Below are positions 3,163 to 55,324 of a DNA stretch of 55,324 bases, one piece after another. The notes beneath the pieces were generated by a model, which had not been told where the DNA came from, ran no database searches, and was given only the letters and a program-made list of their open reading frames with translations. Position 1 is the first letter of the stretch. Every line of letters starts with the position of its first letter. The stretch is from a virus, in IMG/VR virus record IMGVR_UViG_3300031673_000055, positions 1-55,324 of that record. One strand, given 5' to 3'. The translations under genes were made by a program, and so were the position numbers.

Positions 3163-4386
3163 TTACCCTTTAACGTTCACAATTTGTCTTAGCCTATATT
3201 TTATACTCACTAAATCATCTTGTGCCGCCATAACCGCACCAATATCTTTATATGCGGCAGGGCTTTCATCTAATACATCCACGTCAAGCCTCGCCTCTAT
3301 ACCTCGCATGGCATTTTTATGCTGCTCAAGGCTTATAAGCTTTTTAGCTTCACCACGCGACATAACCCTGCCAGCACCGTGTGAACATGAGCAAAAGGAT
3401 TCTTTGTTACCCAGCCCCTCAACTATAAAAGAGCCAGTACCCATTGAGCCGGGTATTATTCCTAAATCTCCTCTTCTTGCTCGTACAGCACCTTTTCTTG
3501 TTACAAGTACGTTATCATTAAAGTGATTTTCACGCTCAACATAATTATGGTGACAATTAACAGCCATATCGCTTGTTATTATTTCTTTAGTGTGACTTTG
3601 CAGAACCTTTAAAACCCTATCCATCATTATTTTTCTGTTTTCTAGTGCGTAATTTTGCGCCCAGCTTACAGCTTCAACATAATCATTGAATATTTCTGTA
3701 TGTTCAACTAAATAAGATAAATCCTTATCAGGTAAATATTGAGTTATATGGTAGCGTTCCATTTCTTCTTTTGCTTTTTCAATGAAATACATTCCAATTC
3801 TATTACCCACACCCCTTGACCCCGAATGAAGCATAATCCATACGGAGTCGTTTTCATCAAGGCATATCTCAATAAAATGGTTACCAGTTCCTAAAGTTCC
3901 TAAATGGCTAATGTTATTGAAGGCTCTAGCTTTTGGGTGTTTATCGGTTATCTTGTTATATTGGGAGTCTATTGCGCCCCATTTACTTATAACATCTTCT
4001 GGCAAGTCGCCACCCCAGCCACCTTTATCGTTTTTACCACCATTATCAGTACGACCATGAGGTACAGCAGCTTCAATGTCGCTTCTAACGTTAGATAGAT
4101 TTTCCGGTAAATCATGAGAGGTTAAATTGGTTTTTACAGCCATCATGCCACAACCAATATCAACACCCACTGCCGCAGGTATTATCGCCCCTTTTGTAGC
4201 TATAACAGAACCAACAGTAGCCCCCATCCCCCAATGGACATCAGGCATCCCAGCAACATGTTTATGTATAAACGGCATCTTTGCAACGTTGCGTAATTGC
4301 TGCATAGCGTTTTCATCAAACCCTTGGTGGCTATCCCATAATTTTAAAGGTGCGCCCTCAGTTTGATAATAGTTAAATTTCTTCAT
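3163..4386 (-). CDS. rtcB: RNA-splicing ligase RtcB (407 aa)
   Basis: RtcB is a Mn/GTP-dependent ligase that joins RNA 2',3'-cyclic-phosphate (or 3'-phosphate) ends to 5'-OH ends. All family signatures are present: VGVDIGCG (73-80, metal-binding Cys79), GTGNHFIE (166-173), HSGSRG (187-192), NCHHN (277-281) and CSHGAGR (334-340), whose His336 corresponds to the guanylylated histidine of E. coli RtcB. I chose the start at 4386, not the longer frame at 4482, because of the GAGGGGGA ribosome binding site and the ATGA-type overlap with the 28-aa gene upstream. The length is normal for the family. In a phage it would plausibly reseal tRNAs or other RNA cut by host defence nucleases (inference). Confidence 0.95.
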   Translation of the reverse strand: MKKFNYYQTEGAPLKLWDSHQGFDENAMQQLRNVAKMPFIHKHVAGMPDVHWGMGATVGSVIATKGAIIPAAVGVDIGCGMMAVKTNLTSHDLPENLSNVRSDIEAAVPHGRTDNGGKNDKGGWGGDLPEDVISKWGAIDSQYNKITDKHPKARAFNNISHLGTLGTGNHFIEICLDENDSVWIMLHSGSRGVGNRIGMYFIEKAKEEMERYHITQYLPDKDLSYLVEHTEIFNDYVEAVSWAQNYALENRKIMMDRVLKVLQSHTKEIITSDMAVNCHHNYVERENHFNDNVLVTRKGAVRARRGDLGIIPGSMGTGSFIVEGLGNKESFCSCSHGAGRVMSRGEAKKLISLEQHKNAMRGIEARLDVDVLDESPAAYKDIGAVMAAQDDLVSIKYRLRQIVNVKG

Positions 4387-4469
4387 AAATCCCCCTCTGC
4401 CATGTAAAATTGCTTGCCGTTGCCCGTGATTATCGCCGCTTTTAGCGGGTCTGTGTAGTATAGGCTCAT
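4383..4469 (-). CDS. 28-aa leader-like peptide coupled to rtcB
   Basis: The ORF MSLYYTDPLK...AEGDL* starts at 4469 with GAGGAAAA upstream. It overlaps the stop of the 58-aa gene by ATGA, and its own stop TGA overlaps the rtcB ATG. Such tight coupling suggests it is translated and sets rtcB translation. No homology is recognised. Confidence 0.45.
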   Translation of the reverse strand: MSLYYTDPLKAAIITGNGKQFYMAEGDL

Positions 4470-4642
4470 TGTTTTTCCTCACCTTCTGGTAATTTATTTA
4501 AAAATTCATCGCTAAATGATAGCGAATTCTTAAAATCCTTTATTTGCTTCATAACTTCTAGTGAATAAACGTCTTTTATTTTGCAAGCCCCGCCAAAATT
4601 ATGTTTCGGGATTGTGCCGATATTTCTATCTTTTTTACTCAT
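4466..4642 (-). CDS. Hypothetical small protein upstream of rtcB (58 aa)
   Basis: The frame begins MSKKDRNIGTIPKHNFGG and ends LPEGEEKQ. It has an AAGGAG ribosome binding site 6 nt before the ATG at 4642. Its stop overlaps the next start (ATGA). The protein is charged and soluble, with no recognised domain. Part of the rtcB operon. Confidence 0.5.
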   Translation of the reverse strand: MSKKDRNIGTIPKHNFGGACKIKDVYSLEVMKQIKDFKNSLSFSDEFLNKLPEGEEKQ

Positions 4643-19079: not shown

Positions 19080-19339
19080 TGTTTTTGCGCGGTACTTTAC
19101 AACAATTTGAAAGCTGGCATGAAACTGCCAAAATATCAGAAAATATACCTCAAGAAGGTAAAGTAGGATATTTAAAAGGCAAGCTTGCAATAAATAGGCA
19201 AAAAACTATAAATTATAGCGATGCAATTAAACATCCTATTAATGAAAATGATTATATATGGCTATGCGGCAATTATTGCACAAATGAAAATTTAGATTTA
19301 GAACAAGTAAAATTATTAGGCTGGTTTAACGATGAGTAA
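19079..19339 (+). CDS. Hypothetical protein after the fibre genes (86 aa)
   Basis: The start MFLRGTLQQFESWH is preferred over a longer frame because its ATG overlaps the previous stop (TAATG at 19079). The sequence is reminiscent of small phage proteins placed between fibre and lysis genes, but I can name no family. It overlaps the next gene by 8 bp. Confidence 0.6.
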   Translation: MFLRGTLQQFESWHETAKISENIPQEGKVGYLKGKLAINRQKTINYSDAIKHPINENDYIWLCGNYCTNENLDLEQVKLLGWFNDE

Positions 19340-19646
19340 TGACATACCGGAGCGGGTTGCGATTGTGGAACAGATAGCAGCAAGCGCACATAAGCGAATA
19401 GATAGCAATGACATTGAAATAAAGGGCTTGCGTGATTCCCGCCATGGACATGCAAATATGCTGCAACGTCATGATGGGTTAATAGCGCAGCATACTGATA
19501 TTTTAAAAAGTCAAAATGAAACACTTAAGACAATGTCGGATGTTGTTGTATCCATAAAAGCTATGGTAGTTATGGCTATATTTTTAGGCACAATCTTTTT
19601 AACTTTTTGCGGATTTGTCGGAAACGAAATATTCAAATGGTGGTAA
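19332..19646 (+). CDS. Coiled-coil protein with C-terminal membrane anchor, XhlA/holin-like (104 aa)
   Basis: Residues 1-75 form a soluble helix with His- and Asp-rich heptads. Residues about 78-100 (VMAIFLGTIFLTFCGFVG) are a single membrane helix, and the end is FKWW. This topology matches XhlA-type lysis accessory proteins. Its place directly before the endolysin and a 3-TM holin supports a lysis role. Confidence 0.65.
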   Translation: MSNDIPERVAIVEQIAASAHKRIDSNDIEIKGLRDSRHGHANMLQRHDGLIAQHTDILKSQNETLKTMSDVVVSIKAMVVMAIFLGTIFLTFCGFVGNEIFKWW

Positions 19647-19648
19647 AT

Positions 19649-20026
19649 ATGAATTGGGATTTATACAAAAATTTTAGTAAATCAGAATTTGATTGCAAAC
19701 ATACAGGCAAAAATGAAATGCGCCCTGAATTTATGCAAGTTTTACAAGAAATAAGAATAGCATATAACAAACCAATGGTTATCAATTCAGGTTATAGAGA
19801 TAAGACACATCCTAAAGAAGCTAAAAAATCTACAACAGGAAGTCATCCTTTAGGCTGTGCTGCTGACATATCAATTGAAGGTGTAAATGCAATGCAGCTT
19901 ATTAATATAGCTTACAATATGGGTATAAGGCGCATAGGAGTTAATCAAAAGGGCGGTGGTAGATTTATTCATTTAGACATTGCTGATAAACTACACGGCT
20001 TCCCTCAATCAATATGGAGTTATTAA
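19649..20026 (+). CDS. Endolysin, peptidase M15 family (125 aa)
   Basis: The Zn-peptidase motifs are complete: NSGYR (46-50), GSHPLGCAADI with ligands His66 and Asp73, and FIHLD with His108. Family members cleave D-Ala-containing peptide cross-links of peptidoglycan. The start MNWDLYKNFS at 19649 gives the expected family N-terminus and follows the previous stop by 2 bases. The longer frame from 19607 would overlap the membrane protein. No signal peptide, so it needs the holin. Confidence 0.9.
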   Translation: MNWDLYKNFSKSEFDCKHTGKNEMRPEFMQVLQEIRIAYNKPMVINSGYRDKTHPKEAKKSTTGSHPLGCAADISIEGVNAMQLINIAYNMGIRRIGVNQKGGGRFIHLDIADKLHGFPQSIWSY

Positions 20027-20027
20027 T

Positions 20028-20492
20028 ATGCTATCAGTTGCATTATCATTATTACAATACGCCCCTGCTGCTGTAAAATTAATAGCAGGTGATAAAGCCG
20101 GTAATGTTGCAGAAAAAATTGTAAATATTGCAGAAAAAATAACAGGCAAAAAAGGCAATGAAGCTGTTGAAGCTATAAAGGAAAATCCACAGTTCGCTTT
20201 AGATTTTGAAAAATCAATTATGGATTATGAAATTGAATTGCAAAGGTTAGCCATAGAGGATAGAAAAAGCGCGAGGGAACACGACAAAGCAACTTATGGC
20301 ATAATGTTTGTAGATGTAATCCGTGGACTTGTGCGCCCAATTATTGCCTTATATTTCGCGTGGTTAATAAGTCATTGTTTGATAAAAGGCATTGAATTAT
20401 CTATTGAGCAAATGGGATTACTTGCCGCCCCCGTTATATACTATTTTGGCGAACGTGGATTCTTTAAAAATAAATCTACAAAGGATAAATAA
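20028..20492 (+). CDS. 3-TM holin, gene-transfer-agent type (154 aa)
   Basis: The domain resembles 'holin of 3TMs, for gene-transfer release': an N-terminal hydrophobic helix, a charged middle with EIELQRLAIEDRKSAREHD, then VIRGLVRPIIALYFAWLIS and MGLLAAPVIYYFGERG. The start at 20028 has GGAG 9 nt upstream; the earlier in-frame ATG lies in the endolysin. This family is common in Alphaproteobacteria and their phages. Confidence 0.85.
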   Translation: MLSVALSLLQYAPAAVKLIAGDKAGNVAEKIVNIAEKITGKKGNEAVEAIKENPQFALDFEKSIMDYEIELQRLAIEDRKSAREHDKATYGIMFVDVIRGLVRPIIALYFAWLISHCLIKGIELSIEQMGLLAAPVIYYFGERGFFKNKSTKDK

Positions 20493-31932: not shown

Positions 31933-31978
31933 GTTAGCTCCTTTCTGTTAAATAATAATCGTTCGGGTATTAAAGATT

Positions 31979-32275
31979 AAAAAAGTACAGGCAGGGGCGT
32001 TACTCCCTCGCTAGCTTTCCCCAACTATGACGTGTGCGCGTTGCTTAAAACCGATTTAGCTGACTTCCTCCTTTGAAGAAATTGCCCTTACGGTTACGTC
32101 CCGGAACTATCCGACTTGCCTGTACTCCAATGCGATTGCTGATTAGGCGCGGGAATCACCCCATCGCATCTAACCCTTTCGGGTATTTACGCCGCTCATT
32201 GACCCTAGTGGAGCGGCACACCGTATAGGTACTAACTAGCTTTCCCTACATACCAATTTTGAGCATTGTTAAGAT
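31979..32275 (-). ncRNA. Candidate structured non-coding RNA (about 300 nt)
   Basis: No convincing ORF covers this gap, and it is visibly richer in G and C than its surroundings. Read on -, it folds into two domains. Domain 1 has helices 32251-32254/32228-32231, 32217-32211/32197-32191 (7 bp), an ACCC-GAAA-GGGT hairpin (32184-32173) and 32169-32163/32136-32130 (7 bp) enclosing TGATT/AATCA. Domain 2 is closed by a perfect 10-bp helix (AGTACAGGCA 32126-32117 with TGCCTGTACT 31993-31984). It holds CGGA-TAGT-TCCG, nested 5-bp helices (32100-32096/32033-32029 and 32095-32091/32053-32049) and GGGG/CCCC. Six Ts follow. GGGAAAGCTAG occurs twice in loops. The GAAA tetraloop and the T-run favour the - strand. 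The family is unknown to me. Confidence 0.7.
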
Positions 32276-32299
32276 GCTTTGGTGGTCTATCTTTTTAAC

Positions 32300-32881
32300 T
32301 TATCTAGCCCATGAGGGGCTTGCATTTTGCTGCTGTCCTGCATTATTATATTGCTGTTGTTGTGCAGGAGCTTGATTATATTGCCCTTGTGCAACTGCAT
32401 TATTTACAGGTTGATTATTATTATTACTAATTGGCTTTAATCCTTTAAAACGAACATTTTTCCTTGGATTGCCGTTATCATCCAATATAAAATCTCCTGT
32501 TTGCTTATTAATTTGATTCGCAACAATAAATAATCCTTCAAACGGTTTAAAATACATTTTTTCATTAAATTCAAAACGTTTATTAGCTTGATTTACTTCA
32601 GTTATAACTGACGCAATGTCTATAATTGCCTCAATCGCTATACGCCTAGCAGTATCATTGCTACTGCCAGTTAAGTAATGAATTTGCACTTTTTGGCCTT
32701 TTAAAGTGCCATCTAAACATTCAAAAGTAATAATAAATTTAGGCTCTTTATTATTAGTTTCCCCTGGTTCAGCATTACAAACATGATAAATTCCAGGGTA
32801 ATTTCCAACTTCTGGAATTGGTATCCCTGATGAATTTGGAGTGTAATTTGTAAATTCCGAACCTGTAGCATCTATATACAT
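32300..32881 (-). CDS. DUF669-like ssDNA-binding protein (193 aa)
   Basis: The beta-rich N-terminal 150 residues (GIPIPEVGNYPGIYHVCNAE; FIITFECLDGTLKGQKVQIH; FEGLFIVANQI) fit DUF669-type proteins that pair with Sak4/AAA_24 ATPases as single-strand binding partners. The tail (about 155-193) is Asn/Gln-rich and disordered, like SSB tails. AAAGGAA lies 7 nt before the ATG. Downstream lies the structured RNA. Confidence 0.75.
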   Translation of the reverse strand: MYIDATGSEFTNYTPNSSGIPIPEVGNYPGIYHVCNAEPGETNNKEPKFIITFECLDGTLKGQKVQIHYLTGSSNDTARRIAIEAIIDIASVITEVNQANKRFEFNEKMYFKPFEGLFIVANQINKQTGDFILDDNGNPRKNVRFKGLKPISNNNNQPVNNAVAQGQYNQAPAQQQQYNNAGQQQNASPSWAR

Positions 32882-32919: not shown

Positions 32920-33684
32920 TTAATTAGTGGGATGGGAAGTTCCAATTACTTTTACAAAATCATTCCAGCCGTTAGAATATGTTATATTAATTTCCTCTGG
33001 CAAATGTAAATTGTTTTTTGCATTTATACCTTTTGCGCGCCTTGTTATTAAATATCTTTCCTCAGTTGGAATAACGCGCCCCTTTTGGTCTAAATGTTCT
33101 TTTTTCTGCAAATAAACTTTAGCTTCAACTAAATCAGATATTTTAGCACCTAATTTATCATGAACTCTTAAATCTTGCATAATATATTCATCCTTATCAG
33201 CCTCTTTCTGCTTAGTTGGCAAACATTGCGCCCCTATAACAATAGGCATGTTATGCTTTTTTCGTATTGCGTCAAGTAAAGGATATACATCGCTTAAAAA
33301 CATATTAGCTGCTAAATCGTAACCCTTATTAAAGTTCAGGGCTTTGCAATGATCATCATTAATAACTTTAACTTTGAAAGTTTCGCAAATTTTATCATGT
33401 ATGCAACGTTCAATCCAATCAAGCGTATCAATCGCAATTAAACCGTATTCTAATTTATCTTGATTTAATAAATATTGTAAAGCTTCTATAAATTCATCTA
33501 AATTTTCAGGGCGATAAACTGAAGCTTGCTTTTCGCTTTTGAACTTTTTTTCAGCGTCTATAACAAAAGGGTTTTTTGCGCTTGCTATAAAACTTGATTT
33601 CCCGTGGCCGTTAGGGGCAAAAACCATAACTAAAGGGGCTTCTTCGGGCGGGGTGGTCATTATATTATTTGGTGAAAATACCAT
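32920..33684 (-). CDS. Sak4-like AAA ATPase, recombination (254 aa)
   Basis: RecA-fold single-strand annealing/recombination ATPase of the AAA_24/Sak4 type. Walker A is APNGHGKSSF (23-32) and the Walker B region is LIAIDTLDW (82-90). KNPFVIDAEKKF and DKLGAKISDLVEAKVYL also fit. It likely works with the DUF669-like protein and the Cas4-like exonuclease. AAGGAG precedes the ATG, with an operator-promoter at 33731-33759. Confidence 0.85.
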   Translation of the reverse strand: MVFSPNNIMTTPPEEAPLVMVFAPNGHGKSSFIASAKNPFVIDAEKKFKSEKQASVYRPENLDEFIEALQYLLNQDKLEYGLIAIDTLDWIERCIHDKICETFKVKVINDDHCKALNFNKGYDLAANMFLSDVYPLLDAIRKKHNMPIVIGAQCLPTKQKEADKDEYIMQDLRVHDKLGAKISDLVEAKVYLQKKEHLDQKGRVIPTEERYLITRRAKGINAKNNLHLPEEINITYSNGWNDFVKVIGTSHPTN

Positions 33685-52277: not shown

Positions 52278-52814
52278 TCATTCAACTATAAATGAATTGT
52301 CATGTAATTGCTCTTGTAAAATTGCCAATCCCAACTCATACCCCTTTGGCTTATCGCCCATAATTTCTTCTACAATTTTCTTAGCTTTGCGTTCTAATTT
52401 TAACGTAAAATCCACACAATCTAAATCAATTTCTATTCTTTCTTTTTGTAGTTTTTCAACATCCCTAAGGGGCATAGATTTCAATAATTCGTGATATTTC
52501 CTTATAATATTACCAGAGGTTTCTATATGATTTTCCAATTTATCATCAGTTAAATTATCATCTAAAAAATCAAAATCTTTCATTACATCTAAAGTAAAAT
52601 TTTGATTATCTTGAATTTCTTCTAATTTACTTAATTTATCTTTATTATTATTTAAACGATTTTCATTTTCAACAAAAAACCATTCAAATTTTTTTTTTAA
52701 CTTTGCAAATTCTGATTCTATAAGTTTATTTTCTTTGTATATAAAATCTATTACAAATAACAATTCATCTTTAGTGCCTCTAAATCTGTATTTTTCAAAA
52801 ATATCATTTGTCAT
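52278..52814 (-). CDS. Long helical coiled-coil protein (178 aa)
   Basis: Almost entirely helical and charged (KENKLIESEFAKLKKKFEWF; NRLNNNKDKLSKLEEIQDNQ; VDFTLKLERKAKKIVEEIMG). No family recognised and no membrane segment. Last gene of the - strand island, downstream of the secreted 104-aa protein. Its first two codons are the first six bases of the window, which shows the circular join. Confidence 0.65.
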   Translation of the reverse strand: MTNDIFEKYRFRGTKDELLFVIDFIYKENKLIESEFAKLKKKFEWFFVENENRLNNNKDKLSKLEEIQDNQNFTLDVMKDFDFLDDNLTDDKLENHIETSGNIIRKYHELLKSMPLRDVEKLQKERIEIDLDCVDFTLKLERKAKKIVEEIMGDKPKGYELGLAILQEQLHDNSFIVE

Positions 52815-52834
52815 TTTTCGTTCCTTTTTTTTGC

Positions 52835-53149
52835 CTAATCAATAATATTTTCTGAATTAGTCCATAGGATAATTGATTTATTGCCTATATAAGCCCTTAC
52901 TTTTGATATACCCCATGAGTTACTTAAAACAGTTGCAGGAATATCAGGTTTTGTAACTATACACAAAGTATTACTAACTAAAAAATTAATTGCATAATCA
53001 TCTTTATCATTAATTGCATCTAGTAATTGATTGAAATAATTTTCAGATATACATGCAGGATAACCACCAACTGTTACTTTTGCTTGAGCTGATACATTTA
53101 TTCCTAAAGTTAAAGCAACGCATATTATTAATGTTTTAATTTTATTCAT
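52835..53149 (-). CDS. Small secreted protein, second copy (104 aa)
   Basis: Same gene as 27-341. Here residue 72 is Ala (GCA) instead of Val (GTA), the only coding difference between the two repeat copies. Confidence 0.7.
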   Translation of the reverse strand: MNKIKTLIICVALTLGINVSAQAKVTVGGYPACISENYFNQLLDAINDKDDYAINFLVSNTLCIVTKPDIPATVLSNSWGISKVRAYIGNKSIILWTNSENIID

Positions 53150-53172
53150 TTTTTTATTCTCCTGTTAGTTAT

Positions 53173-53418
53173 TTAATATTGAGCTTTGCAAGATTTAGAG
53201 CAGAATTTACCCCATCCTCTTTTTATATCAGCTTTTTTAGCTACAAAACCGCATTTGCAATTTTTACATTCAACTAATTTCTTATTGCTAGGTAAATTAT
53301 CGTAAAAGCCATTAGCTTTATTTTGTAAATATTGTTTTCTTTCAGCTTCATGTATTTTGTGCCTTGCGCTACAAAAATTTCTACCATCTAAAAACTCTAT
53401 ATCTTTATACCTACCCAT
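53173..53418 (-). CDS. Treble-clef/zinc-ribbon protein, second copy (81 aa)
   Basis: Identical to 365-610. Confidence 0.65.
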   Translation of the reverse strand: MGRYKDIEFLDGRNFCSARHKIHEAERKQYLQNKANGFYDNLPSNKKLVECKNCKCGFVAKKADIKRGWGKFCSKSCKAQY

Positions 53419-53651
53419 TAAATACCTAATTCATTTAAAATATTATCAATTTCTTTTTTACTAATTGGCTTTGCTTTACCAACTTTATAACCAGCTCTAC
53501 GCAATTGCAAAATTACATTATGAGCATCAAAATTAAATACCGATGCAACGCCATTCATTTTAACCGCCATTTCACGCCATGCAGTTTCACCCTCTTTAGA
53601 TTGAGCTATAAATCTTGTAAACATTTTATCTTGAGTATAAGTTAAATCCAT
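53418..53651 (-). CDS. Hypothetical protein, second copy (77 aa)
   Basis: Identical to 610-843. First gene of the island when the genome is read through the join. Confidence 0.6.
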   Translation of the reverse strand: MDLTYTQDKMFTRFIAQSKEGETAWREMAVKMNGVASVFNFDAHNVILQLRRAGYKVGKAKPISKKEIDNILNELGI

Positions 53652-53684
53652 AATCTTATTCCTTTATTTTAAATCCCTACACCC

Positions 53685-53713
53685 TTTATATAATAGAACT
53701 TATTATACGTCAA
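53685..53713 (-). promoter_or_regulatory. Early-type promoter with operator, second copy of site a
   Basis: Same element as 877-905: TTGACG, 17 bp, TATAAA with TATAATA-GAACT-TATTATA inside. Confidence 0.75.
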
Positions 53714-53731
53714 TACCTATTTTACAAATAA

Positions 53732-53759
53732 TTGCATTTTCTTGTAAATAATATATAAT
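53732..53759 (+). promoter_or_regulatory. Late-type promoter, second copy
   Basis: Same element as 924-951; ATG of the gp10-like gene lies 6 nt after the -10 box. Confidence 0.55.
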
Positions 53760-53765
53760 TATTCT

Positions 53766-54209
53766 ATGTTTAAAGTAACTCCTGACCCAAATAATAGGCA
53801 AGTTGAATTCCAATTAACCCACTTGGAAGAAATAAACGTGCGCGGAATAAGGCAGGCTTTCTACGCAATTGGTGCTATTGCTAAAAGAACAATAAATGAA
53901 AATGTTTTAAAACGCCCACGTTCGGGACAAGTTTATAAATATAAAGGCAGGCGGCATCGTGCATCGGTTGAAGGTGAAAGTTTTGCTAATAGAAGCGGTG
54001 ACGCTAGAAAAACTATTGGATTTAGTGTAAAAGGCGCGCAGGAATTAGAATTTGGTTTTAGGCAAAACGAAAAAACTATGTATACAAAAATATTAGAAGA
54101 AAAACGTAATAGGCCAACTTTACGCATTGCATCAAAAGAAACACAAGGTAAGGCTGTTACTATTATGGAAAATGAACTTAAAAAAGCGCATGATGAGGGT
54201 TATAGATAA
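53766..54209 (+). CDS. HK97 gp10-like tail completion protein, second copy (147 aa)
   Basis: Identical to 958-1401. In the circular genome it follows the head-tail joining gene, separated only by the - strand island. Confidence 0.7.
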   Translation: MFKVTPDPNNRQVEFQLTHLEEINVRGIRQAFYAIGAIAKRTINENVLKRPRSGQVYKYKGRRHRASVEGESFANRSGDARKTIGFSVKGAQELEFGFRQNEKTMYTKILEEKRNRPTLRIASKETQGKAVTIMENELKKAHDEGYR

Positions 54210-55324
54210 TGATAAAAGCATCGACTATAGCAGGGCAATTGCAAAACGCACTACCAACACAAACAAGCTTGTTTAGCAATCCTGATATTACTATAAGCAG
54301 CTTAACGCGTTCAGGAACTACTATAACCGCTGTAACCGCAACGCCGCATGGATTAGCTACTAATAATTATATAACTATTTTAAATGCCAAAACTCCAATA
54401 AGTATAAGTTCTATTACTTCAATACCTAAGCCAGGGATAAGCGCGACTGGCTCAATAGTAACCGTTACAACGGCAACGCCTCATGATTTTACGGAAGGTT
54501 TTGATTTTGTAGCTGAAATTGCAGGGGCTAATCAATCTGCATATAATGGCAGTTTTGCAATAACGGACGTTCTAAATAGGCGAACTTTTAAATATGAAAT
54601 AGATAGTCAACCAGTTACCCCTGCAACTGGTACTATCGTATTATTAAATAATGATGCAACTGGCTACAATGGCAGGCATCAAATAACAGTTACAAATAAT
54701 ACAACGTTTACCTATCAAACTACATTAACCCCTAATAGTCCAGCTCAAGGCACTCCAATTTTAAGAAGTGGTGTAAGAGTTGCAAGGGCTATCTCATGGG
54801 AACGCGCAATGGAAGCTTATACAAAACAGAATACAAGCGCGCTATGGGCTTTTGTGGTACTTGGCGATATATCAATATCAAAAAGCCGTAGGGATAGTAC
54901 GGATGCTATACAAACTTTAACTTATGGCGATGAATATCGCACAAGGCTTATATTGCCGTTCTCAGTTTATATTTACGTTCCATGCTCAAATGAAATAAGT
55001 GGCGGTGCTGCCCGTGATTTAATAGAGGATGTAAGGGTTGCACTTTATAAATCAATGTTGCGTACTAGGTTTACACCTGTATTAGAAGAAGCTGCAACTT
55101 ATGTAACTGTTGCCGCAGGTGATAGATTTATTCAATATAACAATGCGTATTACATTCATGAATTTATGTTTGAAACTGTTTGTGATATAACTATTGGTGA
55201 TACAGTTGCACCTACTGAAAATGTTGCGTTCCGTGATTTCTCATTGATATATATTGACCCTATAACAGATGATGGGGATAATATTATCATGCAAACGCTT
55301 GATGTTAGTTTAGATGATGTTCCG
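54209..55324 (+). CDS. Tail terminator-like protein, second copy, cut by the window end
   Basis: Same as 1401-2522 but lacking the last two codons because the window stops at 55324. Confidence 0.6.
   Translation, partial: MIKASTIAGQLQNALPTQTSLFSNPDITISSLTRSGTTITAVTATPHGLATNNYITILNAKTPISISSITSIPKPGISATGSIVTVTTATPHDFTEGFDFVAEIAGANQSAYNGSFAITDVLNRRTFKYEIDSQPVTPATGTIVLLNNDATGYNGRHQITVTNNTTFTYQTTLTPNSPAQGTPILRSGVRVARAISWERAMEAYTKQNTSALWAFVVLGDISISKSRRDSTDAIQTLTYGDEYRTRLILPFSVYIYVPCSNEISGGAARDLIEDVRVALYKSMLRTRFTPVLEEAATYVTVAAGDRFIQYNNAYYIHEFMFETVCDITIGDTVAPTENVAFRDFSLIYIDPITDDGDNIIMQTLDVSLDDVP

Follow-up and report, generated by a model that had tools for sequence, protein, structure and literature searches.

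The phage genome analyzed here (IMG/VR record IMGVR_UViG_3300031673_000055; the window is the whole stretch of 55,324 nt) carries on its minus strand a structured noncoding RNA, at 32286-31979, that is composed of two modules found apart in other phages. Comparison with known families shows the 5' hairpin to be homologous to abiF RNA, and comparison with a second phage contig shows the 3' module, a folded RNA of 209 nt (32187-31979), to be separately mobile and exchanged between phages. No Abi_2 (PF07751) gene was found in this phage record. We lean, with some reserve, toward reading the window as bearing a phage-borne mimic of the AbiF antitoxin, a decoy, within a composite RNA that also includes a separately mobile ornate RNA.

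The RNA and its genomic setting

The redundant ends of the window form a direct repeat of 2516 bp (1-2516 and 52809-55324; 99.96% identity, one difference), which suggests that the phage genome, of about 52.8 kb, is complete. The features of the locus are as follows, where L392 is the second phage contig and R1 a covariance model, both described below.

32920..33684, minus strand: Sak4-like ssDNA-annealing ATPase (phrog_124, E 7.6e-28; PF13479), upstream in the same gene cluster
32300..32881, minus strand: upstream gene, 193 aa (gene call), with its stop 17 nt before the abiF-type hairpin
32252..32283, minus strand: abiF-type hairpin (cmscan RF03085; exact pattern match 32279-32258; R1 match 32286-32207)
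32188..32251, minus strand: linker with GUAGGGAAAGCUAG and a 7-bp hairpin, GCCGCUC/GAGCGGC (32217-32211/32197-32191), missing in L392
32173..32184, minus strand: GAAA-capped hairpin, 5' end of the 209-nt module; its loop is AAAA in L392
32129..32170, minus strand: 8-bp helix with an internal stem (GAUGCGAU/AUCGCAUU), from the predicted fold
31982..32128, minus strand: multi-helix junction with a perfect 10-bp closing helix (32126-32117/31993-31984); z -4.38 for 31979-32128, fold common with L392
31979..31984, minus strand: T6 run at the 3' end, right after the closing helix (from the sequence)
31934..32187, minus strand: block common with L392, 254 bp at 96.5%, stopping a little short of the next gene's start codon
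31606..31932, minus strand: downstream hypothetical gene, 108 aa (gene call), without counterpart in L392

A first-pass annotation, made from the sequence, had described the interval between the 193-aa and 108-aa genes as gene free and richer in G and C than its AT-rich flanks, and it is both. Its GC content reaches 0.53 versus about 0.25-0.40 in the surroundings, the sole ORF of at least 50 aa is antisense with a TTG start, and no convincing coding potential was found in the gap, whose longest sense ORF has 21 aa. The closing helix at 32126-32117/31993-31984, the two 7-bp hairpins, the GAAA-capped hairpin, the GGGAAAGCTAG repeat, and the T6 run are likewise all present, and a structured noncoding RNA on the minus strand is confirmed: in comparison with dinucleotide shuffles, z was -2.42 for the 297 nt originally delimited, -3.29 for 31979-32187, and -4.38 for 31979-32128, and the fold of the 5' part alone was not exceptional (z -1.28). 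A terminator scan found no classical short-loop terminator at the T6 run. The borders 31979-32275 needed amendment, in that the upstream edge cuts through a conserved hairpin (32283-32252), and the feature runs from 32286 to 31979. The 193-aa gene, labeled DUF669-like in the first-pass annotation, found no match in Pfam or PHROGs. The 108-aa downstream protein also falls into no known family in Pfam or PHROGs.

The 5' hairpin and its relatives

No Rfam family matched the window at gathering score. The sole family in the region up to E 10 was abiF (RF03085), placed by cmscan at 32282-32252 with 23.4 bits (E 0.072), below the gathering score of 37. The conserved pattern AAGCnUCUnAACnAUGCUCAAA had one match in the 55 kb, with zero mismatches, against a chance expectation of 0.03 even when 3 mismatches were allowed, and the sole window match (E 2.2e-6) of R1, an abiF-led covariance model built from eight other phage RNAs with the window sequence left out, was at 32286-32207. 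The two-part stem of the family is present in the same register, with an outer helix (ACCA/UGGU, 32283-32280/32255-32252), an A bulge, a 3-bp inner helix (AGC/GCU), and a 6-nt 3' bulge (CAAAAU), closed by the loop AUCUUAACAAU. What the first-pass annotation had taken for a single unassigned RNA is a subthreshold abiF RNA at the 5' end followed by an independent module of 209 nt, which occurs without abiF in L392; the Rfam search that it had proposed as a check on novelty left the 209-nt part without a relative but matched the 5' hairpin to RF03085 below the gathering score.

The window hairpin has in common with abiF RNA (RF03085; RCd22/AbiFr) the AGC-nUCUnAACnAU-GCU-CAAA hairpin, the register of the outer stem, and an extra pair inside the loop. 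Unlike the known abiF RNA systems, it has no AbiF gene, scores below the Rfam gathering threshold, and is fused 5' of another structured RNA. Its outer stem also has 4 pairs versus the usual 6, and A stands at two near-invariant positions: one where, among the matches listed, 117/119 viral and 124/124 bacterial motifs have a loop C, and a second where C or U is found in 117/119 and 122/124, respectively. The short stem and the two unusual bases accompany the low Rfam score (other phage copies reach 42-58 bits in the abiF model); at the 19 other conserved positions of loop and bulge, and in the loop pair, it has kept the consensus. A search of 369 genomes from one bacterial class turned up no RNA that shares its loop A. 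Because two near-invariant bases differ and the loop variant is absent from those 369 genomes, the activity of the window hairpin on a given AbiF is uncertain.

In phages at large, the hairpins covary strongly and clearly evolve under pairing constraint. Over 46 distinct phage hairpins among the matches listed, the covariation score was 0.465, versus 0.156 +/- 0.018 in shuffled and at most 0.166 in slid alignments; both sides had changed in 89 cells versus 31.9 in shuffles, and compensatory changes occurred in all six outer pairs. The covariation that the first-pass annotation had asked for is thereby found for the abiF hairpin. The outer stem and the loop pair were free in the search pattern, in which the inner stem was fixed; the bare count of compensated pairs (7 versus a shuffled mean of 6.3) is uninformative by itself. 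In each of the 46 hairpins the extra loop pair, which is not drawn in the Rfam structure, was C-G, U-A, or A-U; it was Watson-Crick in 119/119 viral and 122/124 bacterial motifs among the matches listed.

The pattern scan of viral contigs yielded at least 119 loci with the motif, one of them (L080) on a contig near-identical to this phage, and the viral motif loci among the matches listed formed 48 flank clusters. Many of the viral records are fragments, and with that reservation Abi_2 was present in just one of the 119 viral motif records among the matches listed (L067; tallies of 0/40, 0/39, and 1/41, the 40 including L123, which is without the motif). As a control, the same pattern was run against bacterial genomes, where the matches listed were mostly Bacteroidales. 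With an HMM seeded from bacterial motif neighbors, an AbiF-like protein lay within 2 kb of 1/94 viral versus 55/93 bacterial motif loci (among the matches listed that had enough flank), and an independent Pfam scan found Abi_2 in 30 of the 64 bacterial motif neighbors scanned, again among the matches listed. At the bacterial loci the toxin gene often directly followed the RNA (-9 to +50 nt) and the AbiF proteins were of about 300 aa; one bacterial motif neighbor is closely related to an Abi family protein of known structure (PDB 8VZ6). The 38/93 bacterial motif loci among the matches listed that also lack AbiF within 2 kb (L272, L275, L291, and others) may include some prophages or trans-acting copies.

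Cultured phages also carry the hairpin: in Acinetobacter phage Acj61 (58.0 bits) and Roseobacter phage CRP-143 (50.8 bits) it is intergenic and exceeds the Rfam threshold, and no Abi_2 was found in either. An abiF sRNA had already been annotated in the genome of a lytic phage, cyanophage S-CREM1 (PMC9964418); the passages on it differ from the present analysis in giving the annotation only, with no survey of AbiF absence, decoy proposal, or attached ornate RNA described in them. Many phage abiF hairpins adjoin tRNA genes; among the matches listed, 10/41 representative phage loci lay within 250 nt of one, more than for randomly chosen positions (mean 3.1). In two contigs a permuted tmRNA directly follows the hairpin (L008, 7820-8128, RF04321 in that contig; and L102). 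The base 3' of CAAA was U in 119/124 bacterial motifs, whereas among the 119 viral motifs it was C in 75 and U in 42 (matches listed in both cases), a difference that could reflect host range or function. Eight contigs (L025, L032, L042, L090, L114, L115, L268, and L130) share a phage RNA family of ~150-200 nt with the abiF hairpin as its 5' domain, common elements GUAAGUCC...GGCAGAUAAUG, compensatory change in 8/21 predicted pairs, and, in the six members scanned, no Rfam match beyond abiF.

The 209-nt module

Neither Rfam (to E 10) nor ARAGORN matched the 209-nt part to any known RNA (tRNA, tmRNA, RNase P, group I/II intron, GOLLD, ROOL, or OLE), which upholds, as far as these two programs show, the earlier exclusion of tRNA, tmRNA, RNase P, and introns. 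GOLLD, ROOL, and OLE are likewise ornate noncoding RNAs; the window module differs from them in being much smaller and without an Rfam match.

A pattern drawn from the 3' part led to one further contig, L392, and the module is thus known from two distinct sequences. The two phages also have in common a second block (window 19248-20030, 98%); L392 is otherwise different, with genes for a family A DNA polymerase and SNF2 that have no counterpart in the window. The abiF hairpin and linker are missing from L392, and the Rfam abiF model found no match on that contig; the hairpin and the 209-nt module therefore need not work together. As judged by eye, the RNA in L392 sits 3' of a gene whose product has an acidic tail as in ssDNA-binding proteins. 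A 10-bp AATACCCGAA stands at the start of the shared block and again just after the T-run. The window phage and L392 exchange modules and may share a host.

The two copies differ by seven substitutions, five of which fall in helices and keep pairing (5/5). Random placement preserves pairing equally well with P = 0.056, so that these substitutions favor a folded RNA in a suggestive way only.

Other leads to relatives of the module were rejected. The eight-contig family resembled it by eye, and the matches of R1 were confined to the abiF part and GUAGGGAAA. The pattern GTAAGTCC...CAGATAATG returned mostly chance matches, with three likelier relatives of that same eight-contig family, and ATGCTCAAA...GTAGGGnAAA returned mostly coding sequence. 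Searching by way of the Sak4 protein gave only a near-identical contig and L123, whose gap is different: there (L123:1517-1690; Sak4 75% identical) the slot behind an ssDNA-binding-like gene holds another hairpin-rich gap that starts CCGAAAGG (z -1.47). A phage collection yielded no similar DNA besides abiF hairpins, with one chance-level plasmid match, and a search for the 209-nt RNA in 369 genomes from one bacterial class came back empty, which shows little.

Antitoxin mimicry and its alternatives

Published work describes AbiF as a toxic HEPN RNase, places it among the type III toxin-antitoxin systems, and regards it as the Cas13 ancestor (PMC12373285; PMC12737573). The abiF RNA RCd22 binds AbiF directly and neutralizes it in trans (PMC12373285). 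Phages have been reported to carry RNAs of this general kind: an RNA of PhiTE resembling ToxI protects the phage from ToxIN (PMC3475682), and solitary CRISPR repeats in phages act as RNA anti-CRISPRs, or Racr (PMC10651486). Given the analogy with both, the most likely reading of an orphan abiF hairpin is an antitoxin mimic. The proposed likeness to pseudo-ToxI is that a phage RNA copy of a type III antitoxin neutralizes a host RNase toxin; the window differs in its toxin and antitoxin family, in having a single hairpin rather than repeats, and in that the function here is a proposal (PMC3475682). With Racr the window has in common a solitary copy of a defense-system RNA in a phage from which the protein genes are absent, although the RNA resembles an AbiF antitoxin and not a CRISPR repeat (PMC10651486). 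Two features usual for the bacterial systems are absent from the window: the hairpin does not lie directly upstream of an abiF gene, a placement that is usual, not universal, for abiF RNA, and no toxin gene follows the RNA as in type III toxin-antitoxin systems. As with pseudo-ToxI, the phage does carry an antitoxin-like RNA but no gene for the toxin.

A decoy was among the options listed in the first-pass annotation, and we infer that the hairpin is expressed, binds a host AbiF, and acts as one. The position of the hairpin behind Sak4-type recombination genes suggests that it would be expressed together with them. In the proposed mechanism, the 3' side of the Sak4/ssDNA-binding gene cluster would give rise to a composite noncoding RNA with an orphan abiF RNA, an antitoxin without a toxin, as its 5' hairpin. 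Transcription of the recombination genes would bring the hairpin into the infected cell, where it would replace the cell's own antitoxin on a host AbiF-type HEPN RNase and keep the toxin neutralized at a time when infection would otherwise release it. The 209-nt RNA that follows, horizontally exchanged, might serve as a transcript stabilizer or as a second RNA effector.

Several other explanations account for part of these observations. The hairpin could be a functionless remnant of a host AbiF locus, decayed or captured, beside a functional 209-nt RNA that might, for example, regulate the replication or recombination genes. The two altered near-invariant bases and the short stem would fit such a remnant, as would a 209-nt module that moves alone and folds better than the 5' part. 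Decay is unlikely, however, since the 19 other conserved bases and the loop pair are intact, and the hairpins of other phages show a clear pairing constraint; on this evidence we consider a remnant unlikely. It is quite improbable that the whole 300 nt form a single large RNA, ornate or catalytic, that belongs to a new class and resembles abiF only incidentally. The strong 3' fold (z -4.38), the lack of an Rfam family for the 3' part, and differences from L392 that preserve pairs would suit such an RNA, but the hairpin agrees with the pattern at all 19 fixed bases, and because the 3' part stands alone in L392, with the 5' part missing, the two are not one obligatory unit.

An RNA or DNA structure acting in cis, controlling the downstream gene or kept as a recombination hot spot for module exchange, is very improbable in our judgment. 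The block shared with L392 reaches almost to the next start codon (31934) and has unrelated genes attached to it, with AATACCCGAA repeated at its start and after the T-run, as a cis element might be; the five of five helix substitutions that keep pairing nonetheless speak, weakly (P = 0.056), for a folded RNA, and the abiF hairpin would be left unexplained. We give least weight to a complete AbiF-type toxin-antitoxin system whose phage toxin has diverged too far to be recognized. In bacteria the toxin gene often follows directly, and the downstream 108-aa protein, without a known family, would be the candidate, but AbiF proteins have about 300 aa, the record has no Abi_2 match, and neither do 118/119 of the viral motif records among the matches listed.

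The antitoxin-mimic reading can be extended, more tentatively and as a possibility that we hold somewhat doubtful, to orphan abiF hairpins as widespread phage anti-defense RNAs against AbiF-type HEPN toxins, the putative Cas13 ancestors, with the hairpin here fused to a second mobile ornate RNA that would itself be a new anti-defense or protein-binding RNA. Experiments on pseudo-ToxI have established RNA antitoxin mimics, and solitary CRISPR repeats are a known case of RNA decoys. Should orphan abiF hairpins be decoys, the antitoxin-mimic trick would be aimed at the toxin family that gave rise to Cas13; decoys would be present in at least 48 viral flank clusters as well as in two phages in culture, Acj61 and CRP-143, and thus be testable at once, and AbiF would be a real pressure on phages in nature. 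Neither the wide occurrence of orphan abiF hairpins in phages nor the decoy reading was found in the literature searched. The abiF hairpin family is already known; its being joined to a mobile ornate RNA is, as far as the searches show, new. The 209-nt RNA, which moves as a cassette, may represent a new family of phage RNA.

AbiF may be evaded by phages in other ways too, because phage sk1, a DNA region of which protects a phage from AbiF according to the title of a study cited in PMC12737573, has no abiF hairpin; sk1 was accordingly set aside as an independent case of AbiF escape. The window phage also encodes an RtcB RNA ligase (3163-4482, minus strand; PF01139, E 1.6e-126), which possibly serves RNA repair against RNase defenses and would fit an RNA-cutting defense.
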